Part shown: piece after piece, positions 26,978-52,317 of the stretch
How the letters are laid out: every line of letters starts with the position of its first letter
How positions within the stretch are numbered: position 1 is the stretch's first letter
Position numbers and translations under genes: made by a program
Assembly: GCF_025231525.1 (NCBI RefSeq)
Contig: NZ_CP103057.1
Span: 496,001 to 560,000 of the forward strand
Direction: 5' to 3'
DNA from: Sphingomonas endolithica
GTDB lineage: Bacteria; Pseudomonadota; Alphaproteobacteria; Sphingomonadales; Sphingomonadaceae
Length of the DNA stretch: 64,000 bases
Notes under the pieces: model-generated
What the model saw: only the letters and a program-made list of their open reading frames with translations
Databases searched by the model: none
Told to the model about the DNA's origin: nothing

Positions 26978-28093
26978 CTATGATGTCGGGCGGTGCATCA
27001 TCCTAGGGCCGTCTTCAACCATTCTTAGGCGCGGCAGTCCGGCGCGTATACCGATGTCCTCAATGTACTCGGAGATTTCCTTGCGCTGGGTCGCCGTCGG
27101 CAAGACCGGCCGCCCGGGTGCCTCGCTGAAGATGGGGATGTAACCGACCTCCAGCCTGCCATCCGCATGCCAGCGGACGGTGCCGATCATGCCGTTTACC
27201 GCTTCCGGATGGAACGGCGCGAGCGTGTAGGCGGGATCGGGTTCGAAGCCGAACATGCGCTTGCGGCGTTCGACCCATTCGGCGCGCGCGGCATGATCCT
27301 GGCCGGGGCTGAGCGCGTTGGTGACGACGACGCCGTTGCCGAGACCGTGATAGATCGGGCGGTCGCGGTAGATCTCGATCCCGCGCACGATATGAGCGTG
27401 GTGCCCGACGACCACGTCCGCGCCGGCTTCGATCGCGGCATGCGCAAGGGGGCGTTCGTAGGGGGCGAGCTCGGCGGGGCGGTGGGTGATGCCCTTGTGC
27501 AATGCGACGACGATCAAATTGTCAGGTGCACGCACCGCGGCGATATCGGCGGCCATCGCGGCGGCGGAGGCGGGGTCGATCTCGACCAGATCGGCCTGGG
27601 GGCGGCTGGGGCCGCCATCCGCGGCGTGCACTGCGACATAGGCGCTGCCGGCGCGATCCTCGGACGCCCAGGAGATTTCCGGGCCGACGCAATTGTAGCT
27701 GAGCAGGACGATGCGGCGCCCGTCACGCTCGATCACTGCCGGCACCTTGGCTGCGGCCAGCGTTGCGCCGGCGCCGGCGTGCGCGATGCCGAGCCGGTCG
27801 AGTTCGGCGTTGGTGTCGGCGATCCCTTCGGCGCCGCAATCGGCGATGTGGTTGCCGGCCATCGATACGGCGTCGATGCCGGCGCGAGCGAGGGCGGCGA
27901 GATGATCGGGATCGGCGCCGGGGGCGGGGACGTCACCGACCAGTTCCGTCCCGCGCCTTGTGTGCGGCACTTCGAGATGGCCGATCGTCACGTCGGCGGC
28001 GCGGGTAATGTCGGCGATGCCGGAGAGCCAGTGATTCGGATCGGGTACGTCGAGGATGATGTCGCCGAGAAAGGCGAGGTCGAGCGCGGCCAT
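26978..28093 (-). CDS. CapA-family metallophosphoesterase-like protein
   Basis: The start MAALDLAFLGDIIL and the motif SMAGNHIADCGAEGI (metal-binding GNH near residue 86) place it in the CapA / poly-gamma-glutamate synthesis family, which has the calcineurin-like metallophosphoesterase fold. VVALHKGITHRPAELAPYERP and GADVVVGHHAHIVRGIEIY (late histidine cluster near residue 230) agree. The 371-residue length is normal for the soluble form; no membrane helix is present. The start ATG overlaps the stop of the upstream CoA-transferase by one base (TGATG), so it is the last gene of a coupled catabolic operon. That context does not fit capsule synthesis; a role as phosphatase or hydrolase in the pathway is possible. 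Confidence 0.8.
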   Translation of the reverse strand: MAALDLAFLGDIILDVPDPNHWLSGIADITRAADVTIGHLEVPHTRRGTELVGDVPAPGADPDHLAALARAGIDAVSMAGNHIADCGAEGIADTNAELDRLGIAHAGAGATLAAAKVPAVIERDGRRIVLLSYNCVGPEISWASEDRAGSAYVAVHAADGGPSRPQADLVEIDPASAAAMAADIAAVRAPDNLIVVALHKGITHRPAELAPYERPLAHAAIEAGADVVVGHHAHIVRGIEIYRDRPIYHGLGNGVVVTNALSPGQDHAARAEWVERRKRMFGFEPDPAYTLAPFHPEAVNGMIGTVRWHADGRLEVGYIPIFSEAPGRPVLPTATQRKEISEYIEDIGIRAGLPRLRMVEDGPRMMHRPTS

Positions 28094-29280
28094 CAGATCG
28101 CCCTGCTCGCACGCAGCACGGCGATCGACGCAGGATCGTAGCCGAGCCCGTCCAGCACCGCATCGGTATCGGCGCCCAAGGTTGGAACGCGATGCGGCGT
28201 GGTGGGGCGATCGACGGCAAAGCCGGAGCCGACCGTGGCGAGCGGCCGATCGAAGCCGGGCAACTCGACCTCCTCGAGCAGACCGCGATCGACGAGATGT
28301 GGATGCTCGACTGCCTGACCTACATCGCGGATCATGGCCGCGGGTACGCCGGCGGCGGTCAGCCGCAGTTCGAGATCGGCGGCGTCTTCTTGCGACAGGC
28401 GCTCGATTAGCCAGCCGCGCACGCCGTCGTAATGCGCGACCCGCGCAGCGTGATCACGAAAGCGCGGATCGTCGACCATGTCCGCGGCGCCGAGCACGTC
28501 GAGCAGCTTGGCGACCTGATGCTGGTGATTGGCGCCAAGCGCGATCCAGCCGTTGCCGGTGGGATAGAATTCGGCGGTCGCGACCATGCGGTAGCCGCGA
28601 TTGCCGATGCTGGCGGGCGCCTCGCCGGTGTAGGAGTGGACCGACACGCTGGGGGCGATCAGCTTGAGCGCGGCATCGAGCATCGCCACGTCGAGATGCT
28701 CCCCCTTGCCGGTCGCGTCGCGCGTGCGCAGCGCGGCGAGCAGCGCGATCACGGCGAGATAGCCACTGAACGAATCGACGACCGGCATGCCGATCTTGAC
28801 CGGCCCCTGCGGCGTGGCGTTCATCGCCGCGATGCCGGACATGGCCTGGGCGATATGGTCATAGGCGCCCCAATCGCGGAGCGGCCCGTCCTGCCCGAAG
28901 CCGCTGATCGATACGGAGACGAGGCGTGGGTTGAGCGCATCGAGCCGATCACGTGGGAAGCCCAAGCGCGCGAGTACGCCGGGACGGAAATTCTCGACCA
29001 GGATGTCGGCGCGCTCGATCAGCCGCGAGAGGATCTCGCGGCCATCGTCGCTCTTGAGATCGATCGTCACCGAACGTTTGCCGGCGTTGATCGCGGCGAA
29101 GGGCACGCTCATCAGCGGCGGGCCGGCATGTTCGGTATAATGGCGGAAGTCGTCGCCCTTCACTGGTGGCTCGACCTTGGTCACCTCCGCGCCAAGATGG
29201 ACCAGCATCTGCGTGCAGGTCGGGCCCGAAATGGCGTGGCTGAGATCGACGACCTTGATGCCGGCGAGGGGCGGGATCAT
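28093..29280 (-). CDS. CaiB/BaiF (class III) CoA-transferase
   Basis: Family III CoA-transferases move CoA between carboxylic acids through an aspartyl-CoA intermediate. The 395-residue protein has KVVDLSHAISGPTCTQMLVHLGAEVTKVE at the N-terminus and NAGKRSVTIDLKSDDG; the catalytic aspartate sits in EHLDVAMLDAALKL near residue 200, equivalent to D169 of formyl-CoA transferase. Its start overlaps the preceding CoA-transferase stop by four bases (ATGA) and its own stop overlaps the CapA start by one base. The adjacent gene is a second CoA-transferase of similar size, so the two may form a heteromer as in benzylsuccinate CoA-transferase BbsEF. Confidence 0.88.
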   Translation of the reverse strand: MIPPLAGIKVVDLSHAISGPTCTQMLVHLGAEVTKVEPPVKGDDFRHYTEHAGPPLMSVPFAAINAGKRSVTIDLKSDDGREILSRLIERADILVENFRPGVLARLGFPRDRLDALNPRLVSVSISGFGQDGPLRDWGAYDHIAQAMSGIAAMNATPQGPVKIGMPVVDSFSGYLAVIALLAALRTRDATGKGEHLDVAMLDAALKLIAPSVSVHSYTGEAPASIGNRGYRMVATAEFYPTGNGWIALGANHQHQVAKLLDVLGAADMVDDPRFRDHAARVAHYDGVRGWLIERLSQEDAADLELRLTAAGVPAAMIRDVGQAVEHPHLVDRGLLEEVELPGFDRPLATVGSGFAVDRPTTPHRVPTLGADTDAVLDGLGYDPASIAVLRASRAI

Positions 29281-30458
29281 CTGCGCTCTCCGGAAAATGC
29301 GCCGCTGCTGTGCAGCGCGGCGACTTCATCGGCATCAAGGCCGAGTTCGGCGAAGATAGCCTCGTTATCGGCACCGGGCAGTCCGGCCGGGCGGGGCGGG
29401 ACCGGGGGCGTGTCGCTCAAGTGGAACGGCGTGCCGATCTGGCGCACGATGCCGCCGGGGCCGTCGAGATCGACTGCCATGCCGCGGGCGCGGTTGTGCG
29501 GATGATCGAGCGCTTCGGCCGGCGACAGCACCGGCATCGCCTGCGTGTCGGCGGCGGCGAGCAGATCGACCCAATCGTCCCGCGTCCGGGTGCGGAAGAT
29601 AGCCTTGAGCTCTTGCTCCATCCCGGGATGCGCCGCGACATCCATCCGCCGCGGCTCGAAATCGGGCCGGCCGATTGCCGTGCAGAAGCGCGCCCAATAG
29701 GCCGGTTCCATATCCGTGGTGCAGATCCAGCCGCCATCGGCGCATTGCCAGACGCCGCCCTTCGGGTGCCACGCGCCGGTCGGCGGGGGCAGCGCGGCAG
29801 GATCGTCGGTGCGGCCGAGCGTGACCATCAGCAGCGGCATTGCCGCGTCCGACATGGCGACATCGACATGCTGGCCAAGGCCGGTGCGTTCGCGTGCCTG
29901 CAGCGCCGCCAGCGTCGCGATCGTGGCGTGCGTGCCGGCGAGCACATCCGCCACCTGTAGCCCCGGCATCGCCGGATCGGGCAGGCCGTTCAGCCGCGAC
30001 AGCGCGCCGGCCAGCGCCAGCGCGGCTGGATCATGCCCGGCGCGGTCGGCGAGTGGGCCGCTTTGCCCGGCGAAGGACACCGAGCAATAGATCAACCGCG
30101 GGTTGAGCGTCGCCATCTCGGCATAGCCAAAGCCCATCGCCGCGAGCACGCCGGGGCGGTAATCCTCGATCAGGATGTCGGCCTCGGCGATCAGGCGGTG
30201 GAGCACGACGCGTGCCGCGTCGCTGCCGGGATTGATCAGCAGGCTGCGCTTGTTGCGATGATAGGTCGGGCGAGCGCGCGCCTGCGCGGCGGCGGTCGGA
30301 TCGGCGGTCGCGCCGAACATCTGCCCCTGCTTGGCCAGTTCGCGCGGATGTTCGATGCGGATCACATCGGCGCCGAGATCGCCGGCGATCCAGCTGACAT
30401 AGGCGCCGGGCAGGAAGCGCGAGAAATCGACGATCTTCAGCCCGGCGAGGGCCGTCAT
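29277..30458 (-). CDS. CaiB/BaiF (class III) CoA-transferase
   Basis: The 393-residue protein opens MTALAGLKIVDFSRFLPGAY and has the conserved GADVIRIEHPRE and NKRSLLINPGSDAARVVLHRLI. The catalytic aspartate is in QHVDVAMSDAAMPL near residue 205. Four-base ATGA overlaps join it to the dehydratase-like gene upstream and to the CoA-transferase downstream. The reading frame continues upstream of the ATG at 30458, but that part lies within the dehydratase gene in another frame. Together with its neighbour it may activate an organic acid to its CoA ester using another CoA ester as donor. Confidence 0.87.
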   Translation of the reverse strand: MTALAGLKIVDFSRFLPGAYVSWIAGDLGADVIRIEHPRELAKQGQMFGATADPTAAAQARARPTYHRNKRSLLINPGSDAARVVLHRLIAEADILIEDYRPGVLAAMGFGYAEMATLNPRLIYCSVSFAGQSGPLADRAGHDPAALALAGALSRLNGLPDPAMPGLQVADVLAGTHATIATLAALQARERTGLGQHVDVAMSDAAMPLLMVTLGRTDDPAALPPPTGAWHPKGGVWQCADGGWICTTDMEPAYWARFCTAIGRPDFEPRRMDVAAHPGMEQELKAIFRTRTRDDWVDLLAAADTQAMPVLSPAEALDHPHNRARGMAVDLDGPGGIVRQIGTPFHLSDTPPVPPRPAGLPGADNEAIFAELGLDADEVAALHSSGAFSGERR

Positions 30459-32824
30459 GGTGCGACCGTGCGCCGCGCTTCGGCACGCGCGCCAGCCGGT
30501 CCCTCGATGAAGGCCGTGATGCGGTCGTGCAGCGCAGCGGCGTCGTCGCCGGCGAGCGCAAAATTGTCGACGCCGAGTTCCAGCACCGGAATGCCGGCGG
30601 CCACCAATGCGCGGATGACGAACGGATCGGCATCGTCGAGCGCCATCGCGCCATCCACCTGATGCGTCTGTGCCTCGTGCACGTGCCATGGCGCCGCCCA
30701 GCTCGGCATGCGCAGTTCGTCGCCCATCGTCAGGAAGCGGGCGGCGAGCGCGCGCAGCGGATCGCGACCGCGATCGAAATGGCGGATATAGCCATCGGCG
30801 GCGAGCCCCAGATACATCGACCAGACGAACACCGCGCCGTGGCTTTCCTCCCAGCGCTGGTAGAACCCCATGTCGCTCCACATGCCGCGCCCGACGAACA
30901 TCAGCCTTACGCGTTCCTCCGGCACAACCGAGGCGCCATCAGCCACGCGCTGTGCGACTTCCTCGTAGAAAGCCTTGGCCGCATCGCGCGCCCATTGCGT
31001 GCCGCGGTGCCATTGCGGCACCATGGTTGCCGGCATCGAATCGACGATGCCGATCGGTGCGGGCACGGTCCGCGCGATCAGATCGCGGGTGCGGCGGTAA
31101 TATTCCTCCTGCTCGTTGACGAGGTGCATCACCGCCTCGAACCGCGCGGGTTCGAACACGCGGTCGGTTGCCGCTTCCAGCTGGGCGATCACGTCGCGGA
31201 GTTCCGCGGTGAGCAGGTCGAGGCGCGCGGGTTCGAGCGCCTCCTCCCAGCCGTCGGGCAGATCATCCCACCAGTTGGTCGCGATCGTCCAGTTGGGATC
31301 GACCGTGCGCTCGTAGAGATACGGCGCTGCGCCGGTCTCGTCGGCCCAGTTGCTGAAGATGCCGGCGGTGGCATCGCTCGACAGCACCGCATGGACGAAA
31401 TTAGGCTTGGGCAGCCCGCCCCATGGCGCCTGATCGGGATCGTCGTCGAACGATGCCGCCAGTCCTTGCGCGCTATAGGGCTCGACCTTGGCAGGATAAT
31501 CGTGTGCGCTCAGCAGGCCGAGATAGCGGCGCGATTGCTGCTTGGCGGCGACGATCGACGCCCACCACTGGTTGACGACGAACGGGATATCCAGCGCGCG
31601 GAGGATTTCCTGCGGCGCATTGGCGTTGACTACGGCGAACGGCTCGCCCTCAGCGGCCCGCGCGCGGACGCCGGCGAACCATTCGCGCTGGTAGGTGCCG
31701 AACCCTTCGAGCGAAGTCAGCGATTTGCGGCTGCGCGTCTTGTCGGCAGCGCCCGGCGTGCGGGGCGGGGCAGGGCGGGACAGCTTCGGGGGTGGGGCAG
31801 CGCGCAACTGGCCAGCAAGGAAGGCGGCGATATCTTCGATGGCGGTGTCGGTCGTTGCCAGGAACGGAAGAGCGCCACCGATCGCGCGGCGGACCGCGGC
31901 GGCGGTCCAAGGGGCTGCTTCGTCTGCACCGATCGTCAAGTGCACAATGTGCGTCGCCTGGCAGGCGGCTGCATCGGCAATCACGCGGGCCGCGATCTCA
32001 GCTGGTGGCGTGACGGCGCTCGGGCGGCGGATGGCCGGATCGGCTGGGTCGCCGCCGACGAGCGCGCGCCTGCCCCAATCGTGATCCTCGCCGACGATCG
32101 TCGCGCCGAGCGCCTCGATCGCCTCATAGCTTCGCGCCGTCTCGTGCGGGCTGCCGACGATATAGACGCGCGGTCCATCGCGCGCCGGAACGTCCGCGTC
32201 GGGAGATAGCGCAGCGTCGGCGGTGGCCGCATCCACCACGGAGAGGCTGCCGATCAGCTTCAGCATCGTCGTGCCGGACAGACGGGCGGGCATCGCGCGC
32301 CGCCGTCCGTCGAGTGCGAGCAGTTTGCCGACATCGGCGTCCGGCAGCGCGGGTCCGGTGCCGAGGTCGCGCAGCCAGGCATCCAATTCGGCGAGCCGCA
32401 CCACATTGTACGCTCGCGTCGTTTCGCGCGGCAGATGCCCGAGATCGATCAGCGCAATCGGCGGCGGGGTGGCGTCGCCTAGCCGCGCGAGATCGCGGAT
32501 CGTGGCGAACACCTGGACGAGCTCGGCATCGGCGCTGGTGAACAGCACCGGCACGCCAGGCTGCGCAGGATCGAGCAATGCCTCGAGCACGGCGCGGCCG
32601 CGCGCGCCGAGACCCTTCTGCCCCATCACCGCATCGGCGCGTGGCGTTTCGCCGGTGGCTGGCGCCAATCGCACCGGCTGGTAACCGGCGGCCAGCAGCA
32701 GCTCGCGCGGTGCATCGGCACCGATCGTCCGGATCACCCGCCGCCCGGCCGCCAGCGCGGCACGCGCGACGGCGTCGGGATCGTCATAAGCAGCGAGCAA
32801 CGGCGCGAACGGATCGGCGGACAT
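30455..32824 (-). CDS. 2-hydroxyacyl-CoA dehydratase / benzoyl-CoA reductase-like fusion protein (789 aa), almost free of cysteine
   Basis: The sequence looks like two HGD-D domains joined. The N-half (about 1-340) has the pattern of a subunit in which RELLLAAGYQPVRL, TSADAELVQVFATI and ATPPPIALIDLG lie where family members have CoA-site and cluster-binding segments. The C-half (about 370-789) ends with HQVDGAMALDDADPFVIRAL and GIPVLELGVDNF, the family C-terminal strand pattern. Canonical enzymes bind a [4Fe-4S] cluster through conserved cysteines and need an ATP-driven activator. Here I find one cysteine only (near residue 297) and no activator gene. It is flanked by CoA-transferases with one- and four-base overlaps. 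The reaction is not known; it may be a redox-free CoA-ester lyase or isomerase, or a CoA-binding scaffold. Confidence 0.7.
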   Translation of the reverse strand: MSADPFAPLLAAYDDPDAVARAALAAGRRVIRTIGADAPRELLLAAGYQPVRLAPATGETPRADAVMGQKGLGARGRAVLEALLDPAQPGVPVLFTSADAELVQVFATIRDLARLGDATPPPIALIDLGHLPRETTRAYNVVRLAELDAWLRDLGTGPALPDADVGKLLALDGRRRAMPARLSGTTMLKLIGSLSVVDAATADAALSPDADVPARDGPRVYIVGSPHETARSYEAIEALGATIVGEDHDWGRRALVGGDPADPAIRRPSAVTPPAEIAARVIADAAACQATHIVHLTIGADEAAPWTAAAVRRAIGGALPFLATTDTAIEDIAAFLAGQLRAAPPPKLSRPAPPRTPGAADKTRSRKSLTSLEGFGTYQREWFAGVRARAAEGEPFAVVNANAPQEILRALDIPFVVNQWWASIVAAKQQSRRYLGLLSAHDYPAKVEPYSAQGLAASFDDDPDQAPWGGLPKPNFVHAVLSSDATAGIFSNWADETGAAPYLYERTVDPNWTIATNWWDDLPDGWEEALEPARLDLLTAELRDVIAQLEAATDRVFEPARFEAVMHLVNEQEEYYRRTRDLIARTVPAPIGIVDSMPATMVPQWHRGTQWARDAAKAFYEEVAQRVADGASVVPEERVRLMFVGRGMWSDMGFYQRWEESHGAVFVWSMYLGLAADGYIRHFDRGRDPLRALAARFLTMGDELRMPSWAAPWHVHEAQTHQVDGAMALDDADPFVIRALVAAGIPVLELGVDNFALAGDDAAALHDRITAFIEGPAGARAEARRTVAP

Positions 32825-34077
32825 CAGATCGTGCCGGCCTGGCGCAAGGCGGCGATCTGGTCTTCGGAATAGCCCAGGATATCGCGGTAGATCGAGTCGT
32901 TATGCTCGCCGATCGCCACCGGCATGACATCGTCGAAGCCGGTATGCGCCGCCGAGAACTGGATCGGCACGCCCACCGAACGCAGCTCAACCTCGGATGG
33001 GTAGGATGGATGCGCCACTGCCAGCGTTTCCTTGCGTGCCACGACGCGCGGATCAACCAGTGCGTCTTCGGGGTGGCGCACCGGCGCGACCGGCACGCCT
33101 TGCGCCTCCAGCAAAGCGACAACCTCGGCGGTAGGGAGCGTGCGCGACCACGCGTTGATCGTCGCTTCCAGCAGTTCGGCATTGGCGACACGCACGTCGC
33201 GCGTGGCGAAACGCGGATCGTCGCTCAGCTCGGGCTGGCCCATCGCACGGAACAGGCCTTGCGCGAGCTTTTCGTGCACCGCGACGATCGCGACGTAGCC
33301 GTCGGCGCATTCGAACACGCCGAACGGCGATAGGCGCTGCACGGTCAGTCCGGTGCGCGCCGCCATGCCGGCCGAGGCCATCGCGGCCCAATTCTCGATC
33401 GCGACGAACGAGGTGAGCGCGCCGAGCATCGACACGTCGACATGCTGGCCTTCCCCCGTGCGATGGCGTTGCTCGATCGCCGCCAAGATGCCGATCACCG
33501 CGAAGACCGGCGCCAGCATGTCGGCGATCGGCACGCCGATGCGCACCGGCGGATGACCGGGCTCACCGCTGGTGTACATCGCGCCCGACAGCGCTTGGAT
33601 GATGACGTCCATCGCCTTGCCGCCCTCCGGCGCATCGGCCCCGAAACCGCTGAGCGAGCAATAGACGATACCGGGATTGACCGCGCGGGCGGCGGAGTAA
33701 CCGACACCCAGCCGATCCGCGGTGCCGGCAGTGAAATTCTCCACCACGATATCGGCATTGCGCACCAGATCGGCAAAGACATCCGCGGCGCCCTTGTCCT
33801 TCAGGTTGAGCGTTACGCCGTATTTGCCCCGGGCGCGCGTCATGTGCGAGATCGAGATGTCATCATCGTGACGCTTCTCGACGACGACGCCGTCCCGCCC
33901 GACATAGGGGCTGTTGTCGCGTGCTAGATCGCCGCCACGCGGATCCTCGACCTTGATGACATGCGCGCCGAGCCCGGCGAGCAGCAGCGTTCCGTACGGC
34001 CCGGCAAGTGCGCGCGTCAGATCGATGACGCGCAATCCTTCGAGCGGGCGGGTGGAAGTTGGAGTGGGTGACGTCAC
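32824..34077 (-). CDS. CaiB/BaiF-like protein lacking the usual catalytic aspartate
   Basis: The 417-residue protein begins with a GTG at 34077 that overlaps the stop of the TRAP binding-protein gene (GTGA). It reads RPLEGLRVIDLTRALAGPYG and KVEDPRGGDLARDNSP, and is clearly a class III CoA-transferase homologue. In the segment GQHVDVSMLGALTSF the position that carries Asp169 in formyl-CoA transferase is glycine, while the aspartate five residues earlier, used by the racemase branch (AMACR/MCR), is present. It could therefore be a racemase-like enzyme, or a partner subunit without transferase activity. Its stop overlaps the dehydratase-like gene start by one base. Confidence 0.78.
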   Translation of the reverse strand: MTSPTPTSTRPLEGLRVIDLTRALAGPYGTLLLAGLGAHVIKVEDPRGGDLARDNSPYVGRDGVVVEKRHDDDISISHMTRARGKYGVTLNLKDKGAADVFADLVRNADIVVENFTAGTADRLGVGYSAARAVNPGIVYCSLSGFGADAPEGGKAMDVIIQALSGAMYTSGEPGHPPVRIGVPIADMLAPVFAVIGILAAIEQRHRTGEGQHVDVSMLGALTSFVAIENWAAMASAGMAARTGLTVQRLSPFGVFECADGYVAIVAVHEKLAQGLFRAMGQPELSDDPRFATRDVRVANAELLEATINAWSRTLPTAEVVALLEAQGVPVAPVRHPEDALVDPRVVARKETLAVAHPSYPSEVELRSVGVPIQFSAAHTGFDDVMPVAIGEHNDSIYRDILGYSEDQIAALRQAGTI

Positions 34078-35141
34078 GAATTGCTCTCCTGCGCGCCGGT
34101 GGTGGCGCAGCGGCGCGATGCGCCGCCGTTGATCATGGCCTGCGCCGCCGCGAGGACCGGCTCGGCATCGATGCCAATCGTCTTCATGCGGCGGGCCTGG
34201 TTGATGGCGTCCTGGTAATACAGCGCGTCGAAGCGCGCCTGTTCGGCCGCGGGCAGTGGCTGGAAACTGATGCCGTTGCTCTTGCCGAAGGTGATTCCGG
34301 CGATCTCGGCGGCCTGGAGCTGGCGGTTCAGCGCCTCCTCCCACCGCGGCTTCGAGCGCATCAGTAGCGCCTGCATGTCCGCCGGCAGCCGACGCCAAGA
34401 GCGATCCGAGATGGCGCGCGCGGGATAGGCACCACGGCTGAAGCGGATCGTGGTGAAATGCTTGGCGACTTCGGAGAAATGCAGGCTCTTGATCGTGTCG
34501 GCCGGCGCGACGACGCCGTCGATCACGTTCTTGGCCAGCGCCGAATAGACTTCGCCCATCGGCATGTTGACCGGATCGGCGCCCAATTGCTTGAGCACGT
34601 CGATCGCGTCGCTCTGCGCGCGCAGTCGCAGTCCCTTGAAATCGGCAAGCGTGCGGATCGGCTTGTACCGCGTCAGCACGCCGGGGAAATTGCCGCCCTG
34701 GACGGCGAGCACCTGCAGCCCCTCGAGTTCCTTGCCGAAGCCGGGGAAGCGCGCGGCGAGGCAGTCATACACCGCGACCTGCTCGTTGATATCGCGCACG
34801 CCGCCGTAGAAGCCGGATTGCACGCGCAGCAGATGCGCCCCGCCACGGGCATAGATCGGCGTGATCAGCCCGATATCGGCGACGCCGTGGCGGATTTCCT
34901 CCATGCTCATATCGGCCGACAACAACGCGCCCGACCAATAGGGCCGGAAGGCGATCTTGCCGCCGCTCTGCTTCGTTACCAGGGCCATCCACTCGGTATC
35001 GGCGCGGCTGAATGGATGCGTCGGGGGGTAGGGGCTGGCGAAGGTCAGGACATAGGGGGCAGGGGCGGTAGTAGGTGTCCGGGCACCGCAGGCGGTGAGC
35101 AGCAGCATGGCGCTGGCGGCGATCAAGGCACGTATCTTCAT
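34074..35141 (-). CDS. dctP: TRAP transporter substrate-binding protein, DctP type, lipoprotein
   Basis: The 355-residue protein starts MKIRALIAASAMLLLTACGA: a type II signal with lipobox LTAC (cysteine at residue 18), so it is anchored rather than free in the periplasm. The mature part has the DctP features LTFASPYPPTHPFSRAD, GVADIGLITPIYA, the arginine/binding segment TRYKPIRTLADFKGLRLRAQS and YSALAKNVIDGVVAP. DctP proteins bind organic acids, often aromatic or dicarboxylic, for sodium-driven uptake. It lies one base after the dctM stop and overlaps the next gene by four bases. The ligand is unknown. Confidence 0.88.
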   Translation of the reverse strand: MKIRALIAASAMLLLTACGARTPTTAPAPYVLTFASPYPPTHPFSRADTEWMALVTKQSGGKIAFRPYWSGALLSADMSMEEIRHGVADIGLITPIYARGGAHLLRVQSGFYGGVRDINEQVAVYDCLAARFPGFGKELEGLQVLAVQGGNFPGVLTRYKPIRTLADFKGLRLRAQSDAIDVLKQLGADPVNMPMGEVYSALAKNVIDGVVAPADTIKSLHFSEVAKHFTTIRFSRGAYPARAISDRSWRRLPADMQALLMRSKPRWEEALNRQLQAAEIAGITFGKSNGISFQPLPAAEQARFDALYYQDAINQARRMKTIGIDAEPVLAAAQAMINGGASRRCATTGAQESNS

Positions 35142-35142
35142 C

Positions 35143-36447
35143 TCAGACTCCCGCAATGCTGGGCAGCCACAGGGTCAGCGCGGGAACCGCGATGATCAGG
35201 GCGAGATGCAGGAAGTCGGCGATCAGGAACGGCACGATGCCCCGGAAGATCGCGCCCAAGGGAATGTCCTTGCCGATGCCCTGAATGACATAGACGTTGA
35301 GCCCGAGCGGCGGATGGACGAAGCCGATCTCCATCGTCCGCACTAGGAAGATGCCGAACCAGATCGGGCTGTAGTGCAGTTCGAGTGCGATCGGCAGGAA
35401 GATGGGCGTCGCCAGCAGCATCAGCGCCAGCCCGTCGAGGAACGAGCCGAGTATGAGCAGCAGCAACGCCATCGCGCAGATTGCGAGCACCGGGCTGGCA
35501 TGCATGTCGCGCACCGTCGTCGCCATCAGATCGGCGATACCGGTGACGCTGACGAACGTCGCGAACAGGATCGCGCCGATGATGATGACGTAGATCATGC
35601 CGGTGGTGCGCAGCGTGCTGGTCACCGCCTCACCGATCAGCCGGCGGTTGAACGCGCCGCGCAGCGCGCACAGTCCGAATGCTGCGACGACGCCTACCGA
35701 GGCGGCCTCGGTCGGAGTAAACCAGCCGATCATCAACCCGCCGATGACGAACGTGATCAGCACGGCGATGTCCGCGATCTTGCCCAGGCTGCGCAGCCGC
35801 TCGGCCCAGCCGACGCGCACGGAGCGCGGCCCCAGTGCCGGGCGAAAATGGCACAGGATGGTGATCGCTGCCATGTAGAACAAAGCCTGGGTGAGGCCCG
35901 GAATGATCGCCGCAGCGAACAGCTTGCCGATCGATTGTTCGGCGATGATGCCAAACACGATCAGCGCGCCCGACGGCGGGATCAACGCGCCCAGCGTGCC
36001 GCCAGCGGCGAGCGCGCCGGCGGCGAAGCCGGGCTGGTAGCCGGCGCGGCGCATCTCGGGCAGCGCGGCCGAGCCGACCGTGGCAACCGTGGCAAGGCTC
36101 GATCCACTGATCGCGCCGAACCCGGCACAGCCGGCGATCGAGGCGAGCGCCAAGCCGCCGCGGCGGTGCCCGACGAAGCGCGCCGCCACGTCGAAGAAAT
36201 CGCGGCTCGCACCCGCGGCGAAGCACAGATGCGCCATCAGCAGGAACAGCGGCAACACGCCCAGTTCGTATTTGGTGACGACTTCGAACGCCACGACGCC
36301 GCCCTTGATCACCGCCGCTTCGGGCGAGATGAGGATGGCGATGCCGGCCAGACCGACGGCGCCTAGCCCGATGCCGATCGGCACGCCGAGTGTCAGCAGG
36401 ATGAGCAATGCGGCGATGCCGATAAAGCCGATCAGTTCGGGCGTCAT
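35143..36447 (-). CDS. dctM: TRAP transporter large permease subunit, DctM type
   Basis: The 434-residue protein has about twelve hydrophobic segments and the DctM signatures ALLILLTLGVPIGIGLGAVG at the N-terminus, GFGAISGSSLATVATVGS near residue 105, GGTLGALIPPSGALIVFG near 150 and FVHPPLGLNVYVIQGIGKDIP near the C-terminus. It moves the substrate across the inner membrane together with DctQ, fed by DctP. The ATG overlaps the dctQ stop by four bases (ATGA). Confidence 0.93.
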   Translation of the reverse strand: MTPELIGFIGIAALLILLTLGVPIGIGLGAVGLAGIAILISPEAAVIKGGVVAFEVVTKYELGVLPLFLLMAHLCFAAGASRDFFDVAARFVGHRRGGLALASIAGCAGFGAISGSSLATVATVGSAALPEMRRAGYQPGFAAGALAAGGTLGALIPPSGALIVFGIIAEQSIGKLFAAAIIPGLTQALFYMAAITILCHFRPALGPRSVRVGWAERLRSLGKIADIAVLITFVIGGLMIGWFTPTEAASVGVVAAFGLCALRGAFNRRLIGEAVTSTLRTTGMIYVIIIGAILFATFVSVTGIADLMATTVRDMHASPVLAICAMALLLLILGSFLDGLALMLLATPIFLPIALELHYSPIWFGIFLVRTMEIGFVHPPLGLNVYVIQGIGKDIPLGAIFRGIVPFLIADFLHLALIIAVPALTLWLPSIAGV

Positions 36448-36950
36448 CGCGTGCGCGCCCCTATGGCCTGGCGCGCGAAGACGAGCGCGACGATCAACAG
36501 GGCGGCGGCGAAGATCGCGCGCAGCACGCGGAACGGAATATGGAGCAATTCGGACCGCTCGTGCGCGCCCCACAAATCGAACATCAGCCACAGCGCGCCG
36601 ATCAGCAGGACGGCGACGATCACCGCCGATGCCACGTTCGCCGCGCGTGCCAGTCGGGCGGCGGTCGGTGGTGCCAACCGTTCGGTCAGGATGTGCACCG
36701 CGGCATGATTGCGTTCCAACGTGGCCAATACGATCGCCGAGGAAGCAAGCAGGACGATCATCGTCTGGACGATCTCGATCGAGCCGAGCACCGAGAAGCC
36801 GGTATGCCGGCCAAGTACCGCAAGCGCATCGGTTGCCATCGCACCCAGCAAGCCGATGCTGCCCACCATGACAGCAAGTCGCGTGGCCAAGGATGTCCGT
36901 CGGGCTGGGTCGGCGACGGGCGTGCTGCCAGTGTCGGCGTTGATATCCAT
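36444..36950 (-). CDS. dctQ: TRAP transporter small permease subunit, DctQ type
   Basis: The 168-residue protein has four hydrophobic segments spaced as in DctQ (LAVMVGSIGLLGAMATDAL, VQTMIVLLASSAIVLATLER, VASAVIVAVLLIGALWLMF, and IFAAALLIVALVFARQAIG). It pairs with DctM. I use the ATG at 36950, preceded by AGGGAGAG. It is the first gene of the eight-gene coupled run that ends with the CapA gene, and starts 162 bases after the marR stop, with a palindrome half in between. Confidence 0.85.
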   Translation of the reverse strand: MDINADTGSTPVADPARRTSLATRLAVMVGSIGLLGAMATDALAVLGRHTGFSVLGSIEIVQTMIVLLASSAIVLATLERNHAAVHILTERLAPPTAARLARAANVASAVIVAVLLIGALWLMFDLWGAHERSELLHIPFRVLRAIFAAALLIVALVFARQAIGARTR

Positions 36951-37072
36951 CACTCTCCCTTGGCCATGCGTGCGGTCGTGACCGCCTGGCCTTGCATCAT
37001 ATAGTGAGGTTTACAGATAGTTTGTCAATCCACCGATTTGCGATTTCGGGCGGGCCGGAGTGGAGGGCAAGA

Positions 37073-37112
37073 CAAGGCTGTCCCCCGGCAAAGGCCGGGC
37101 CCCGTCGCGACC
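37073..37112. repeat. Single arm of the CCCCCGGC-AAAGGCCGGG palindrome family
   Basis: The sequence at 37079-37112 (CCCCCGGCAAAGGCCGGGCC, then CCGTCGCGACC) matches one arm of the repeats at 16.4 and 61.2 kb. A long opposite arm is not visible nearby, only the local CCGGC/GCCGG stem. It lies between the marR and dctQ genes. Confidence 0.5.
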
Positions 37113-37541
37113 CTACTGGTAAATCCGTTCGAGCAGGCGCGACAGCGTCGTCAGTTCGCGCGCGGTGAAGCGCTCCTTAAGCCATGCCTCGTGCTCGCCA
37201 ATGGCGACGCGCGCCTCCTCCAGCATCCGCTCGCCACCCTGCGTCAGCCTGAACCCGATACGCCGAGCATCCGACCCCGCACGCGCACGCACGAGCAACC
37301 CACGCTTCTCGAGCGCATGCACGATCGCCATCGTCGTCGCGCGATCCATCTGCAGCGTGCGCGCGACATCGGTCTGGGTCGTGCCCGGCGCATCGTGTAC
37401 CAGCCACAAGACCGATACCTGCTTCTGCGTCAGCCCGAGATGCGCGCAATGCTCGGCAAAGTGCCGTTGCACCGTGCCGTGCGCCAGGCGGATGCGCAGG
37501 CCGAGAATGTCGTCCAGTGCGCCGCGCCCGGCATCATCCAT
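37113..37541 (-). CDS. MarR-family transcriptional regulator
   Basis: The 142-residue protein has the winged helix LTQKQVSVLWLVHDAPGTTQTDVARTLQMDRATTMAIVHALEKRGLL and the wing with ARAGSDARRIGFRLTQGG. MarR proteins are dimeric repressors that release DNA on binding aromatic acids or CoA thioesters. Its start overlaps the Rieske oxygenase stop by eight bases, so the two are co-expressed and the protein probably senses a substrate or intermediate of this pathway. The TRAP/CoA operon begins 162 bases downstream on the same strand. Confidence 0.9.
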   Translation of the reverse strand: MDDAGRGALDDILGLRIRLAHGTVQRHFAEHCAHLGLTQKQVSVLWLVHDAPGTTQTDVARTLQMDRATTMAIVHALEKRGLLVRARAGSDARRIGFRLTQGGERMLEEARVAIGEHEAWLKERFTARELTTLSRLLERIYQ

Positions 37542-38562
37542 CCACCAACTCCATCGTCGCTAGCCGCGTGATCATCGCCCGGGCGCGGACGCTCCCTTGG
37601 TCGATCGAATAGCCGCGCAGCTTCATGTCGGGGTTTGCTGCCATGGATTTCTGCTGCGCCTCCAGAACCTCGACATCCTCGTCGAACACGCGGCCCTGCT
37701 GCGCCTTGAACCGCGCGGTGAAGCCGGCATCGTCGATATCGAAATTGCGCGCCATGCCCCAGAAATAATGCGTCGTGCCGTCGCTTTCCGGAGTCATCGC
37801 ATCGATGACCATGCCGCGCACGCCCTGATCGTGATGCTCGGGGGTCGCTCCGGCCGCAACCGGTGCCACGCCGACGTCGATCAGCACGTTCGATGGCTCG
37901 ACGAAATGGCAGATCTGCCAGCGGTCGACCGGGCCATCCAGCCGCAGCGCATCGCGCCAGAAGGGTGGGGGCTCGATCCCCGGCATCCAGCGCTGTACGC
38001 GTACCGCGCTGCCCTCGACGATCGTATCGATCGGCGTCTCGTTGATCTCGTGCTGCCCGATCGATCCTTGATGGACATAGGTTTCGTGGCTCAGGTCCAT
38101 CAGGTTGTCGATCACCAAACGGTAATCGCAGGCGATGTGGTTATAGCCCCCGTCGAACGTCCAGCCGGGGGCGCTGCATGGCCAGAAATCCGGGATCGTC
38201 GCCGGATCGGCCTTCGCCGCCTCGCCAATCCACACCCAGACGAAGCGGTGTTTCTCGACCACCGGGTACAGGGTCGCGCAAACGGCCTTGGGCACCTTTT
38301 CCGATTTCACCGGCATTTCCGTGGCCACCCCGTCCGGGCCGATCAGCAGGCCGTGATAGCGGCACCGGATCGAATCGCCTTCCTTGATCCCCATCGACAG
38401 CGGCAGCAGCCGGTGCGGGCACGCGTCGCGCATCGCGACGATCGATCGATCGAGCTTGCGGTACAGCATGACCGGCTCGCCGCAGATCGTGCGGGCGATC
38501 GGCGCGCGATCCACCTCGCTATCCCATGCCGCGACATACCAGCGATTGGTGATCCAGGTCAT
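37534..38562 (-). CDS. Rieske non-heme iron oxygenase, VanA-like
   Basis: The 342-residue protein starts MTWITNRWYVAAW. The Rieske site has Cys48-x-His50 (ACPHRLLP) and Cys67-xx-His70 (RCRYHGLL). The mononuclear iron site is in DNLMDLSHETYVHQGS, with Asp156, His159 and His164. Length and layout match vanillate O-demethylase oxygenase (VanA) and similar demethylases. No reductase (VanB) gene is in the window, so electrons must come from elsewhere. I use the second ATG (38562) since AGGAG sits at the right distance. It overlaps the marR gene and is divergent from a MetE-like gene. The substrate is probably an aromatic acid or ether; vanillate is possible but not shown. Confidence 0.88.
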   Translation of the reverse strand: MTWITNRWYVAAWDSEVDRAPIARTICGEPVMLYRKLDRSIVAMRDACPHRLLPLSMGIKEGDSIRCRYHGLLIGPDGVATEMPVKSEKVPKAVCATLYPVVEKHRFVWVWIGEAAKADPATIPDFWPCSAPGWTFDGGYNHIACDYRLVIDNLMDLSHETYVHQGSIGQHEINETPIDTIVEGSAVRVQRWMPGIEPPPFWRDALRLDGPVDRWQICHFVEPSNVLIDVGVAPVAAGATPEHHDQGVRGMVIDAMTPESDGTTHYFWGMARNFDIDDAGFTARFKAQQGRVFDEDVEVLEAQQKSMAANPDMKLRGYSIDQGSVRARAMITRLATMELVDG

Positions 38563-40257: not shown

Positions 40258-42018
40258 ATGTCGGCGCAGGATGTTCATCGGCAAATGGCCTTGGCGATTG
40301 CCGCATTGGCCCTGTCGGCAAACGCCGTGCTGCCCGCCATCGCCGCCCCCAGTGCGGCCGCTGCCCGGGCTGATCCGCACTTCATTCGCGAATCGATCTA
40401 TGTGCCCGTGCGCGATGGCACGCGGCTGGCGCTCAACATCTACCGCCCGGTCCGAAACGGACGCGCGGTAGAGACGCCGCTGCCGATCGTTTTCGCCTTC
40501 ACGCCCTATCGCGCGCGCTATGTCGACAAGGACGGCAAGATTGTCGAACTGGTGGATTCACCCGTATTCGGCCTGCGTGCGCTGGTTAAATCCGGCTATG
40601 TCGTCGCCACCGCCGATGTGCGCGGCAAGGGTGCTTCGTTCGGAGCGCGTCGCGGCTTTCTCGACCAGACCGAAGCGCATGACGGTTACGATTTGATCGA
40701 ATGGCTGGCGAAGAAGCCGTGGTCGAGCGGCAAGGTCGGGCTTACCGGCTGCTCTTATCTCGGCGGTTCGGCAATGCTGGTGGCGGGCACACTACCACCA
40801 TCCTTACGCGCGGTGTTCGCCGCGGCGACCGACCTCGACAAATACAGCTTCGTGCGCAACGGCGGCATTACCGGGCAGTTCAACACGCGCCCGGACGAGC
40901 CGCTGGCCGTCGATCTCGCCAGCGTGCCGGTCGATGCAGATCGCGACGGTACCATGCTGAAGGCAGCAGTGGCCGAACATGCCGGCAACACGCCAATGGC
41001 CGCTTTGTGGTACGGCATGCCGTACCGCGACGATGCGTCCCCGCTGACGAAGAACCGCTTCTGGGAAGAGGTCGGCCCCTACACCCATCTCAAGGCGCTG
41101 CAGAGCCCGCAACTCGCCTGGCTGCTGTGGAGCAATTGGGAGGATGAGCCGACCGAGCAGATGATCCTGAACGCGGCCAACCTCAAGTCGCGCATCCTCA
41201 TAGGTCCGGGTAGTCATTGCGTGCCGCCTGCGGCGTTCGACATTGCCGGGGAGCAGAAATCGTTCTTCGACCATTATCTGAAGGGCATCGACAACGGCTT
41301 CGAGCGGGGTCCGCGCGCGTCCTGGTACAGCGAGACTCCAGGCAAGGGCGTCGGCGCCGGTACGATGGTGCAGTCGGCAACGCTGCCGGGCGTCGGCATC
41401 AAGCGATCGCCGCTTTATCTGTCCGGTGCCGAGGCGGTCACACTGGCGCCGGGCAAATCGGCGAAGGTACCGTTCATCGTCGACTACAATGTCGGGCAGG
41501 GCGAGTATTTCGCCTTCTGGCCACCTTCGCAGGACGGCAAGGGGCTGACCTTCACCAGCCCAGCGCTTGCCGGCGATGCCGCCATGACCGGCTATCCCAT
41601 TGCCCACATCGTCACGGCACTCGATCGGCCGGACGCCAACCTGTTCGCTTATCTCGAGGACGTCGATCCAGCGGGTAAGGCTTATATCGTGTCGTTCGGA
41701 CGGCTGGCGGCATCGCACCGCAAGCTCGGGCGCGCACCCTATGATCGGCTCGATCTGCCCTATCATTCCGGCTTGCGCGCAGACGCGCTGCCGATGGTGC
41801 CCGGCAAAGCGGCCGAACTCGCCTTCTCGATGGTGCCGCGTGCCTATACCTTTGCCGCCGGGCACCGCATCCGCGTGACGTTGACCGGCGCCGATCCGCG
41901 CCAGCGCAACCTGGCCGAGATCAAGCAGACGCCGCCGCCGGTGTTCACCGTGGCGACCGGCGGCGCGGTGGCCTCGCGCATCGACATTCCATTTACAACG
42001 AAACCGACGTTCCGCTGA
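40258..42018 (+). CDS. CocE/NonD-family secreted hydrolase, copy 1
   Basis: The 586-residue protein has a signal peptide (MALAIAALALSANAVLPAIAA, cleaved near residue 30), then the X-Pro dipeptidyl-peptidase-like alpha/beta hydrolase fold. The catalytic serine is in GLTGCSYLGGSAM near residue 166; DVRGKGASFGARRGFLDQTE is the family oxyanion region and GPGSHCVPP near residue 320 carries the likely histidine. The C-terminal beta-sandwich domain ends RIDIPFTTKP. Members hydrolyse esters and amides such as cocaine or glutaryl-cephalosporin, so an acyl-aromatic ester is a reasonable substrate. A TonB receptor follows after 27 bases, and a paralogue of both is next. Confidence 0.87.
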   Translation: MSAQDVHRQMALAIAALALSANAVLPAIAAPSAAAARADPHFIRESIYVPVRDGTRLALNIYRPVRNGRAVETPLPIVFAFTPYRARYVDKDGKIVELVDSPVFGLRALVKSGYVVATADVRGKGASFGARRGFLDQTEAHDGYDLIEWLAKKPWSSGKVGLTGCSYLGGSAMLVAGTLPPSLRAVFAAATDLDKYSFVRNGGITGQFNTRPDEPLAVDLASVPVDADRDGTMLKAAVAEHAGNTPMAALWYGMPYRDDASPLTKNRFWEEVGPYTHLKALQSPQLAWLLWSNWEDEPTEQMILNAANLKSRILIGPGSHCVPPAAFDIAGEQKSFFDHYLKGIDNGFERGPRASWYSETPGKGVGAGTMVQSATLPGVGIKRSPLYLSGAEAVTLAPGKSAKVPFIVDYNVGQGEYFAFWPPSQDGKGLTFTSPALAGDAAMTGYPIAHIVTALDRPDANLFAYLEDVDPAGKAYIVSFGRLAASHRKLGRAPYDRLDLPYHSGLRADALPMVPGKAAELAFSMVPRAYTFAAGHRIRVTLTGADPRQRNLAEIKQTPPPVFTVATGGAVASRIDIPFTTKPTFR

Positions 42019-42045: not shown

Positions 42046-44736
42046 ATGAAGACCAAGACCAGGATCGCCACGGGCGTTGCGATGACGGCAATGCTATGGG
42101 CCGGTGCCGCCGCCGCGCAGCAGACGACTCCGTCCGAGACCACGCAAGCGCCGGATGCCGGCCCGACCGTCAACCAGGAACCGACGGCCGACATCATCGT
42201 CACCGGCAGCCGGGTGCGCGGCGCCGCACCGGTTGGATCGACCGTGATCTCGCTCGGACGCGAAGATGTCGTCGCCTCCGGCGCCGCCACCACCGACCAG
42301 CTGATCAAGCAAATCCCGCAGGTCTTCGATCTAGGCGTCAGCCAGAATTCGCGCGGCCAGTCGGGCGGCAACGGCAACATCTCCTACGGCAACAGCGTCA
42401 ACCTCCGAGGCATAGGGCCCTATGCGACGCTGATTCTGGTCGACGGGCACCGCGCGGTGAACAACAGCCGCGCATTCGACCCCTCTGTCATCCCGACCAT
42501 TGGTCTCGAACGGGTCGAGGTCGTCGCCGACGGTGCGTCGGCGATTTACGGTTCGGATGCCGTCGCCGGCGTGGTCAACCTCATCCCGCGCCGCTCGCTC
42601 GACGGTATCGAAGCTTCCGCGCGCTATGGCTTTGCGGACGATTTCCACGAGTGGCAGGTCGGTGCCGCCTTCGGCCACAAATGGAGCCAGGGCCAGATCA
42701 TGGTCGCGCTGGAACATACGTTCCGATCGAACCTGAACGGCAACGACCGCAGTTTCTTCCGCTCCGACCAGACCGCATTTGGCGGCGGCGATTACCGCGT
42801 CAACCGCTGCAATCCCGGCACGATCACGGCCGGCGGCATCAGCTATGCCATTCCCGTCGGCGGCGTGACCCAGGCGAATGCCGGCGCTTTGGTGCCCGGC
42901 ACGAGCAACCGCTGCGACGACATCGTCGGGCAGGATCTGTTCCCGCAGCAGCAATATGATTCCGCGAACATGACCTTCACGCAGGAGATCGGCGACCGGG
43001 TCACCTTGTTTGCCGACGGCTTCTATTCCTACCGCAAGTTCCTGCGTCTGCCGGCTTACCCGAGCGCGTCGTTGACGGTGCCGCAGAGCAATGCCTTCTT
43101 CGTGCGACCGGCCGGCTTCACCGGCACCAACTACACGCTCGGCTACAACTTCCAGAACGACCTGTTCCGCGCGCCCAATCCGGGCAGCGCCGAAAACTAC
43201 CAGATTTCCCCCGGCGTCCGCGTCAAGCTGTTCGGCGACTGGCAGGCGGAAGGCGTCTACAGCTATGGCCGCGGGGACGACCAGTCCGATTCCTATTACG
43301 GTCTGAACAATGCCGCACTTGCCACGGCTCTGGCGAGCAGCAATCCGGCGACCGCCTTCGATCCCTACGGCCAGGGCCGTACCTCGCAGGCCACCCTGGA
43401 TGCGATCTACGACCAGGTGTTCCTGGCCCCTACGCTCAACCACTTCACCGGCTACGAAGCGCGGCTGAATGGCTCGCTGTTCCACCTGGGTGGCGGCGAC
43501 GTGAAACTGGCGGCCGGCTATGAGGGGCAGGAGATCGAGACGATCCTCGGCAATGTCCGCGGCGTGCGTGGGTCCAAGGTGGTTTATCGCACCTTCTCGC
43601 GGCGCGTCGACTCCGCTTATGCCGAATTGCTCGTGCCGCTGTTCAGCGCTGAGAATGCCATCCCCGGCATCCGCCGGCTCGATCTCGACGCCGCGGTTCG
43701 TTACGACAAATACAGTGACGTCGGCAGCACGACCAATCCCAAGTTCGGCATCAACTGGTCGCCTGTGCGTGGCCTGACGTTCCGCGGCAGCTACGGCACC
43801 TCATTCCGCGCGCCGCTCATCTCGCAGATCTACGGCAATTCGAACAATTTGTTCGTGCAGACCTATCAGAACCCGGCAGGAGCACCGATCACCGGCGTGG
43901 CGCTGTCGGGTGCCAATCTCGGTCTCAAGCCGGAAGAGGCGACTACGTGGTCGGCCGGTGCCGATCTCGAACTCGGCCGGCTGCGCCTGAACGCCACCTA
44001 TTTCAACGTCGAATATACCAATCAGGTCGATTCCTACCTTTCGGATCTCGCGATCGTCGCACGCGAAGACCAGTTTGCCGGCACCGGCATCATCCTGCGC
44101 GGCGCGGCGGCAGCGGCGCGTGTTGCGGAATTGCAGGCGCAGGGGATCAACGTGGTTGGTGCCTTGCCGGGCGGGAGTGCGGCGAACGTCACCTTGTTCG
44201 TCGACGGGCGGAACAACAATCTGGGGAAATCGAAGACGGAGGGTATCGACCTCGTCGCGAATTATACGTTGCCGACCGACAATGTCGGCACGTTCGGCAT
44301 GAACCTCAGCGGCACGTACCTGACACGTTACGAAGTCTCGATCACCGAAGCGGCACCCGCGATCGACCGCCGCAACACGATCTTCTTCCCGCTGAAGTTC
44401 AAGGCGCGTGGCAGCGTAACCTGGGATCTGGCGCCGTTCCGGGCGCAGCTGACCGCCACGCATGTCGGCGGGTATCGCAACAACGCGGTGACACCGTTCG
44501 AAAGCGTGAAGAGCTACACGCCGATCGACTTCAGCATCGCCTGGACGCTCGGCAATCAGGGTGGCAACAACGTGCTCGACAACACCGTGCTGGGTGCCGA
44601 AGTGCGCAACGTGTTCGATATCGATCCGCCCTACGTCAACTTGGCGCCGTCCGGAAACGGCAGCGGCGGGTATGACGCGACCGCGTCGAACCCGACCGGC
44701 CGGCTCATTTCTGCTTCGCTGCGTACCAAGTTCTGA
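42046..44736 (+). CDS. TonB-dependent outer-membrane receptor, copy 1
   Basis: The 896-residue protein has a signal peptide (MKTKTRIATGVAMTAMLWAG, cleaved after AAAAQ) and a TonB-box-like DIIVTGSRVRG, then a plug domain with SVNLRGIGPYATLILVDGHR and VADGASAIYGSDAVAGVVNLI. The barrel part ends with PTGRLISASLRTKF, a terminal phenylalanine as expected for outer-membrane proteins. No STN signalling domain is present, so it is a transporter, not a transducer. It lies 27 bases after the CocE-like hydrolase on the same strand; import of the hydrolase substrate or product is likely. The ligand is unknown. Confidence 0.92.
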   Translation: MKTKTRIATGVAMTAMLWAGAAAAQQTTPSETTQAPDAGPTVNQEPTADIIVTGSRVRGAAPVGSTVISLGREDVVASGAATTDQLIKQIPQVFDLGVSQNSRGQSGGNGNISYGNSVNLRGIGPYATLILVDGHRAVNNSRAFDPSVIPTIGLERVEVVADGASAIYGSDAVAGVVNLIPRRSLDGIEASARYGFADDFHEWQVGAAFGHKWSQGQIMVALEHTFRSNLNGNDRSFFRSDQTAFGGGDYRVNRCNPGTITAGGISYAIPVGGVTQANAGALVPGTSNRCDDIVGQDLFPQQQYDSANMTFTQEIGDRVTLFADGFYSYRKFLRLPAYPSASLTVPQSNAFFVRPAGFTGTNYTLGYNFQNDLFRAPNPGSAENYQISPGVRVKLFGDWQAEGVYSYGRGDDQSDSYYGLNNAALATALASSNPATAFDPYGQGRTSQATLDAIYDQVFLAPTLNHFTGYEARLNGSLFHLGGGDVKLAAGYEGQEIETILGNVRGVRGSKVVYRTFSRRVDSAYAELLVPLFSAENAIPGIRRLDLDAAVRYDKYSDVGSTTNPKFGINWSPVRGLTFRGSYGTSFRAPLISQIYGNSNNLFVQTYQNPAGAPITGVALSGANLGLKPEEATTWSAGADLELGRLRLNATYFNVEYTNQVDSYLSDLAIVAREDQFAGTGIILRGAAAAARVAELQAQGINVVGALPGGSAANVTLFVDGRNNNLGKSKTEGIDLVANYTLPTDNVGTFGMNLSGTYLTRYEVSITEAAPAIDRRNTIFFPLKFKARGSVTWDLAPFRAQLTATHVGGYRNNAVTPFESVKSYTPIDFSIAWTLGNQGGNNVLDNTVLGAEVRNVFDIDPPYVNLAPSGNGSGGYDATASNPTGRLISASLRTKF

Positions 44737-44835: not shown

Positions 44836-44878
44836 ACCTGACTGTAGGACGCGCAGATCGTTCCTGGGAGAGGTGGTC

Positions 44879-46627: not shown

Positions 46628-46650
46628 TGTTTCATCTACAGGAGAGAATG

Positions 46651-49942: not shown

Positions 49943-50077
49943 GAATCGGCTGTAATCAATAGCGGCCCGCAAACAAAGCGAGTTCGTTTCGATCACGACC
50001 GATCGTTTCAGATCGGTGCGCTGCGCCACCATGCTCGGCTGCGTGCGGGAGACGCCGTACGGCTCCCGCACGCGCGA

Positions 50078-51072: not shown

Positions 51073-52317
<1,245 letters not shown>

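Follow-up and report, generated by a model that had tools for sequence, protein, structure and literature searches.

What can a protein with the fold of the 2-hydroxyacyl-coenzyme A (CoA) dehydratases be doing in a sphingomonad, in the middle of an operon that also encodes a tripartite ATP-independent periplasmic (TRAP) transporter? The question is raised by a 64,000-nucleotide stretch of Sphingomonas endolithica (the window, which covers 496001-560000 in a genome of 4.09 Mb assembled as a single contig), where we find what appears to be an undescribed system: a real, conserved and widespread catabolic module whose central enzyme, here called HGDD, is without the ligands of its family's defining cofactor. 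In an open-access literature search, judged by titles and the beginnings of abstracts, no paper describing the system or its reactions was among the matches listed. Eight genes, all on the minus strand, make up the tight unit, which runs from dctQ (36950) to capA (26978). Their start-stop junctions are overlaps of 4 bases (dctQ-dctM), 4 bases (dctP-caiB1, with caiB1 starting at the GTG at 34077), 1 base (caiB1-HGDD), 4 bases (HGDD-caiB2), 4 bases (caiB2-caiB3) and 1 base (caiB3-capA), together with a 1-base gap between dctM and dctP. Pfam confirmed the families as DctQ, DctM, DctP, three CoA_transf_3 (PF02515), HGD-D (PF06050) and PGA_cap/CapA. As the original prediction had it, the last eight genes are joined by overlaps of 1-4 bases or a 1-base gap, and this arrangement supports their reading as one transcription-unit-like block. 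The 8-base overlap between the preceding Rieske and MarR genes is also as predicted; their inclusion in the same unit was not supported, because 162 bases separate MarR from dctQ (159 with the GTG at 36953 as the dctQ start), which limits the unit to eight genes, and because the Rieske gene is matched in 4 of 79 related loci and the MetE-like gene beyond it in 3 of 79. With so few matches, Rieske and MarR were also rejected as part of the pathway.

A closer view of HGDD shows that the HAD/BCR fold (2-hydroxyacyl-CoA dehydratase/benzoyl-CoA reductase) of both subunits is kept in a single chain. The description of this protein as a double HGD-D agrees with the fold, which structure comparison finds in the N half too; the Pfam HGD-D match is confined to residues 402-774 in the C half. 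Its assignment to the ordinary HGD-D enzymes was not supported, since the three [4Fe-4S]-binding cysteines are absent: their positions correspond to E448, S483 and a missing stretch, and no cysteine occurs in residues 361-789. In the ligand alignment (95 rows including the window's own copy, L004, and some genomes twice; L071 is without the region), cysteines stand at both of the first two ligand positions in only four of 94 rows (L001, L002, L016 and L093). Unlike the class I benzoyl-CoA reductases BzdNO/MbdON, where BzdO carries Cys128 and His131, HGDD has Ser and Thr at these places, Glu as the first ligand and Gln where the HadB/MbdO alignment has Glu, the stretch of the third ligand being absent. 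The Glu/His pair is likewise lost in the alignment, and a set of Trp, Arg, His and Asn residues is conserved across two phyla. The protein comparison comprised 120 proteins, the window's own included (the matches used being the best 120 of 417 and the best 120 of 2224). Among the related loci listed, the closest named HGDD relative is from Sphingomonas hylomeconis (88%). A split sister module on Novosphingobium/Croceicoccus plasmids (L001, L002, L016) resembles the present one in its TRAP, CapA, CocE, CaiB and HGD-D genes and differs in that two separate genes encode the HGD-D halves and that five cysteines (C93, C96, C102, C128 and C130), invariant in the 120 relatives listed, are retained in the C half. 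In this subunit (L001:11992-13278, L002:11965-13266 and relatives) the third of the canonical ligands seems to be missing, and the cluster site may have been remodelled. A separate long-branch lineage of HGD-D relatives (L003, L015) has Pro and Gly at the ligand positions, neither Cys nor Glu.

In the textbook view, dehydration of 2-hydroxyacyl-CoA requires both a ketyl radical and an iron-sulfur cluster of low potential. In the clostridial 2-hydroxyacyl-CoA and phenyllactate dehydratases, whose gene make-up we take to be HadA/HadBC/HadI and FldA/FldBC/FldI, the product thioester supplies the CoA with which a CoA-transferase charges the acid, and the thioester so formed is what the dehydratase fold acts on. 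By analogy, the CaiB1-HGDD pair may repeat this logic, as here too a type III CoA-transferase gene adjoins a gene whose product keeps the folds of both dehydratase subunits. Unlike the Had and Fld systems, the HGDD subunits are fused, the cluster cysteines are absent and an activator is not recognised, the module adds a TRAP or ATP-binding cassette (ABC) importer and CapA, and it occurs in sphingomonads and soil actinobacteria, which are taken as aerobes. No ATP-dependent activator of the BcrAD_BadFG type was found at the operon; outside it, the genome encodes two PF01869 proteins, which match NagK only, both below its cut-off (73.5 and 206 bits, with a cut-off of 370; NCBIfam, E 1e-5).

That the gene block is more than chance follows from the related loci (the best 80 of 208 stretches in species genomes, 79 of them distinct), where caiB1 stands immediately before HGDD in 74 of 79; the five exceptions are contig ends in L020, L053, L071 and L091 and another order in L093. 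Gene order, on which the original prediction had made its operon depend, is therefore conserved in relatives. Gene counts per locus were taken by tblastn (E 1e-10, anywhere in the locus), because the caller of open reading frames missed genes hidden by longer frames, such as CapA in Actinobacteria. The loci come from Sphingomonas, Novosphingobium, Caulobacter, Phenylobacterium, Niveispirillum, Povalibacter and Alteromonas among the Proteobacteria, and from Amycolatopsis, Prauserella, Streptomyces, Pseudonocardia, Nocardioides and others among the Actinobacteria. TRAP genes were matched in 36 of 40 full proteobacterial loci and in none of the 28 full actinobacterial ones, which carry an SBP_bac_3 receptor with ABC genes (26/28) and a PaaX regulator (27/28). 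As the CaiB1-HGDD core, usually with CapA (matched in 54 of 68 full-flank loci: 28/40 proteobacterial, 26/28 actinobacterial), is common to both phyla while importer and regulator are exchanged, it constitutes a functional unit. The spread of HGDD relatives is patchy: they occur in 27 of 397 genomes of the family sample, the present genome among them, and in 4 of 397 sampled from the phylum as a whole. Tannase, P450 and AMP-ligase genes are promising but unproved neighbours at related loci.

The partner genes were then read for what they suggest about the substrate. All three CaiB proteins pass the PF02515 cut-off, and the Asp that is catalytic in type III CoA-transferases is kept in CaiB1, as aligned with YfdE, and present in CaiB2 and CaiB3, as read by eye. 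Three caiB copies are found in 30 of 46 proteobacterial loci and a single one in 30 of 31 actinobacterial loci. Several proteobacterial loci have a separate CaiB-like gene of about 330 amino acids (c20, 26% to caiB1) before caiB2, and L001:9911-11995 encodes a double-length CaiB in which Pfam sees two stretches, the best in the second half, the first half looking degenerate. For DctP, the AlphaFold2 model (mean predicted local distance difference test score 87.8) has aromatic-acid receptors, including TarP structures, among its closest structures in the VIA lists, which served for both the HGDD fold and the DctP comparisons and from which a family may be absent without being thereby excluded. 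As in the hydroxycinnamate transporter TarPQM, the P, Q and M genes are all present; unlike it, the identity of DctP to TarP is 21% or less. The ligands of the TRAP structures were taken from structure titles, a literature search for them having found nothing, and the matches lean to aromatic-acid receptors. The sole solved relative of CapA among the matches listed is the peptide epimerase MslH. MslH is reported to be a Ca(II)-dependent alpha-carbon epimerase acting on a C-terminal Trp (PMC10406935). Its metal and catalytic residues Glu44, Asn87, His88, Asp91, His259 and His295 align with CapA E41, N81, H82, D85, H199 and H234, each with a conservation of 97% or more over 59 sequences; D11 corresponds to Asp11 by position only. 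These are six of eight MslH residues by alignment, partly generic for calcineurin-like metalloenzymes, and CapA scores 86.3 bits on the MslH equivalog NF038314, far below its cut-off of 700; for these reasons an epimerase role is a lead only. The context of CapA also differs from that of MslH, being catabolic and not one of ribosomally synthesized and post-translationally modified peptides.

More was learnt from the company that HGDD keeps. The genomes scanned for HGDD, FerB and PobA (397 each, with identical settings) were taken as the same draw and are related, so that co-occurrence p-values are not strict. Within the family sample, HGDD relatives are always found together with FerB and PobA, occurring in 27 of 76 genomes having both and in 0 of 33 having one only. 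FerB lies within 31 kb of an HGDD relative in 15 of 42 cases (0.98 expected), a limit chosen once the 30.7 kb of the present genome was known; with other limits the counts are 6 of 42 at 10 kb (0.34 expected), 12 at 20 kb (0.65) and 16 at 50 kb (1.56). By hand count, the 31 kb cases comprise 9 of 17 for the fused type and 6 of 25 for the other type. In NCBIfam, all three enoyl-CoA hydratase-family (ECH) genes examined from relatives pass NF006588.

Altogether, an aromatic-acid route through CoA esters, as the original prediction proposed, is the reading best supported by context. We consider it probable that the system is an aromatic-acid on-ramp to the FerB-PobA-LigAB pathway, and give an even chance to the operon being, whatever the exact substrate, a module for the aerobic uptake and conversion of an aromatic C6-C3 acid that plant phenolic esters release. 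The plant ester would be taken in and split by TonB receptors and secreted CocE/PETase-like hydrolases, and the released acid would be imported by the TarP-like TRAP transporter. CapA, a calcineurin-like metalloprotein, might adjust the alpha carbon as MslH does, and CaiB1 would hand CoA from product to substrate as HadA and FldA do. The Fe-S-free HGDD would then act on the acyl-CoA outside the radical electron cycle of its relatives, the likeliest single reaction being hydroxyaryl-lactyl-CoA to hydroxycinnamoyl-CoA, which may drain via FerB, an aldehyde dehydrogenase, PobA and LigAB, whose genes lie on the same island. A hydroxyaryl-lactate, as in rosmarinic-type esters, is the simplest fit because the import receptor appears to be of the aromatic-acid type, the neighbouring enzymes use up hydroxycinnamoyl-CoA and 4-hydroxybenzoate, and the alpha carbon may be set by CapA; an aryl-lactate substrate is nevertheless only tentatively proposed.

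Several observations weigh against this picture. To begin with the transporter, the TarP rows of the VIA list interleave with an isethionate receptor (30.8) and exceed the sialic-acid (29.8) and ectoine (28.9) receptors only slightly. Just 16 of the 79 loci have hydroxycinnamate-type genes within 10 kb, and generalist aromatic degraders could yield part of the co-occurrence with FerB and PobA. The genes might then serve a non-aromatic organic acid, either a sugar acid or a dicarboxylate, their closeness to phenolic genes reflecting the catabolic islands of generalists; the complete nesting with FerB and PobA in the family sample and the FerB proximity render this improbable. Of the 27 co-occurring genomes, moreover, 21 have a C-half match only (36-44% identity; split or other type) and 6 the fused type. 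In genomes carrying the module outside the sampled family (E 1e-60, without L095), FerB was found in 6 of 31 actinobacterial and 3 of 5 other proteobacterial genomes; the idea that FerB is needed everywhere was rejected on the remaining 25 and 2. Seven actinobacterial loci have an amidohydrolase (c19) beside the operon, a candidate CouO-like enzyme; this could be its identity, judging by family and neighbours only. As to CapA, it has Gly at the position of MslH His261 and is without a match in 12 of 40 full proteobacterial loci.

The pocket of HGDD raises a further objection. By hand extrapolation of the alignment, the position of BzdO Trp46, which lies over the ring, is Asn/Asp (402) in HGDD, which would make the pocket more polar than a plain phenyl group needs, and that of BzdO Leu302 is Ala. 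Such changes would suit the quinate/shikimate half of chlorogenic-type esters, to which, after import, CaiB1 would attach CoA and from which HGDD would remove water in steps to give 4-hydroxybenzoyl-CoA for PobA, with FerB serving the caffeate half. PobA and FerB accompanying every relative in the family sample, the 25 actinobacterial genomes without FerB and a second pobA 6-11 kb from the HGDD relative in three genomes with another pobA elsewhere (G246, G310 and G350) are in line with this scheme. On the other hand, the DctP matches lean to aromatic-acid receptors, an alpha-carbon epimerase, if CapA is one, would be useless on either acid, and the family association is as strong with FerB as with PobA, so we regard this route as doubtful.

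The chemistry itself is the remaining difficulty. Loss of the 2-hydroxy group next to the thioester is said to need a radical route, the beta proton being too weakly acidic (PMC11574389), so a cluster-free enzyme for alpha-dehydration would need new chemistry; it is also possible that an activator falls outside the models used. Either HGDD has found another way or its substrate differs. It could be no more than a CoA-ester-binding scaffold, or a simple hydratase/isomerase (for example cis/trans) for hydroxycinnamoyl-CoA, with CaiB1 as an ATP-free hydroxycinnamate CoA-transferase using the acetyl-CoA released by FerB. This fits the loss of both the ligands and the Glu/His pair, the FerB dependence in the sampled family and TarP-like import of hydroxycinnamates; we find it unlikely, though somewhat less so than the two preceding alternatives, as the conservation of Trp, Arg, His and Asn residues in two phyla points to a genuine active site, this genome already possesses a ferA-like gene and CapA is left unexplained. 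Returning to the uptake-and-conversion module, its most far-reaching form, to which we attach limited confidence, is that HGDD is the first of an oxygen-tolerant, iron-sulfur-free enzyme class on the 2-hydroxyacyl-CoA dehydratase fold. It would dehydrate an alpha-hydroxyacyl-CoA, or carry out some step of like difficulty, through acid-base or novel metal chemistry at E448, S483/T486 and the conserved Trp/Arg/His/Asn set, forming with CaiB1, CapA and an importer a catabolic system common to Proteobacteria and Actinobacteria.

The operon borders a phenolic-degradation island (Table 1). Beyond the Rieske gene come the MetE-like gene, two CocE/TonB-receptor pairs, a second MarR and the PETase-like hydrolase, then pobA, LigC-like, ligB, ligA, the LigI-like amidohydrolase, ligK, ligU, ferA-like and ferB, and past the window end an aldehyde dehydrogenase and a major facilitator superfamily (MFS) gene. 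Measured from the operon's dctQ end, the distance is 14 kb to pobA and 27 kb to ferB. FerB, PobA, LigA, LigK and LigU pass curated cut-offs in this genome; the names LigC and LigI are presumed from family and place. MarR2 is the best window match to the MarR gene preceding the TRAP genes in many relatives, and the open frame of the PETase-like gene exceeds the gene, an internal start giving a signal-like peptide. Upstream of dctQ, TTGACA followed by TATATG can be seen by eye; it went unscored by the sigma-70 scan, which gave 1 site in the region with a shuffle mean of 1.7, and no promoter is claimed. A Saro_0803-type operator there was rejected, because the inverted repeat at this place is weak, with pairing at 7 of 10 positions. 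The MetE-like gene also adjoins the module in L032, L036 and L017. Between it and the CocE gene sits a 23-base inverted repeat (39903-39925 / 39964-39986; arms 96% complementary, 38 bases between them) resembling a dispersed intergenic repeat, and a tRNA-Met (CAT) gene (26593-26669, minus strand), a possible integration site, adjoins the operon end.

Table 1. Features of the operon and the adjoining island (window positions).
Feature	Position	Strand	Evidence and remarks
capA, calcineurin-like metalloprotein, signal peptide not evident	26978..28093	-	PF09587 182 bits
caiB3, type III CoA-transferase	28093..29280	-	PF02515 369.2 bits
caiB2, type III CoA-transferase	29277..30458	-	PF02515 291.7 bits
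HGDD, fused HadC-like (2-341) and HadB/BzdO-like (about 366-787) halves without cluster cysteines	30455..32824	-	
caiB1, type III CoA-transferase adjoining HGDD	32824..34077	-	PF02515 349.8 bits
dctP, TRAP solute receptor, lipoprotein-like N-terminus	34074..35141	-	PF03480
dctM, TRAP large permease	35143..36447	-	PF06808 301 bits
dctQ, TRAP small permease	36444..36950	-	PF04290 45.1 bits; GTG 36953 is an alternative start
MarR regulator, Saro_0803 family	37113..37541	-	NF053777 210.1 bits (cut-off 200); linked, outside the eight-gene block
Rieske gene (VanA_C)	38568-37534	-	Pfam; outside the eight-gene block
Short MetE-like protein	38650-39762	+	PRK06520 subfamily, NF005085 over cut-off; divergent from Rieske gene
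CocE/NonD hydrolase, signal-peptide-like N-terminus	40258..42018	+	TIGR00976; CocE match in 28/40 full proteobacterial loci
TonB-dependent receptor	42046..44736	+	TonB match in 35/40 full proteobacterial loci
Second CocE/NonD-like hydrolase	44873..46627	+	
Second TonB-dependent receptor	46624..49413	+	
MarR2, start not settled	49463..50071	-	match in 36/40 full proteobacterial loci
PETase-like alpha/beta hydrolase, GHSCGG	50078..51217	-	by relatives; own Pfam match none at E 0.001
pobA, 4-hydroxybenzoate 3-monooxygenase	51073..52266	-	TIGR02360 615.6 bits (cut-off 538.7)
Protocatechuate 4,5-cleavage genes: LigC-like, ligB, ligA, LigI-like amidohydrolase, ligK, ligU	52352..60643		
ferA-like ADP-forming acyl-CoA ligase	61311..63581	-	65% to ferA-like gene of L002; frame begins upstream of gene
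ferB, p-hydroxycinnamoyl-CoA hydratase/lyase	63559..64000, off window end (L096:3560-4423)	-	NF006588 457.5 bits (cut-off 276)

Hydroxycinnamate catabolism would gain from the module a missing entry step, which is relevant to converting lignin and plant esters. Moreover, as the family keeps the fold and the CoA-transferase partner without the cluster ligands, a radical-free function of this fold becomes directly testable.

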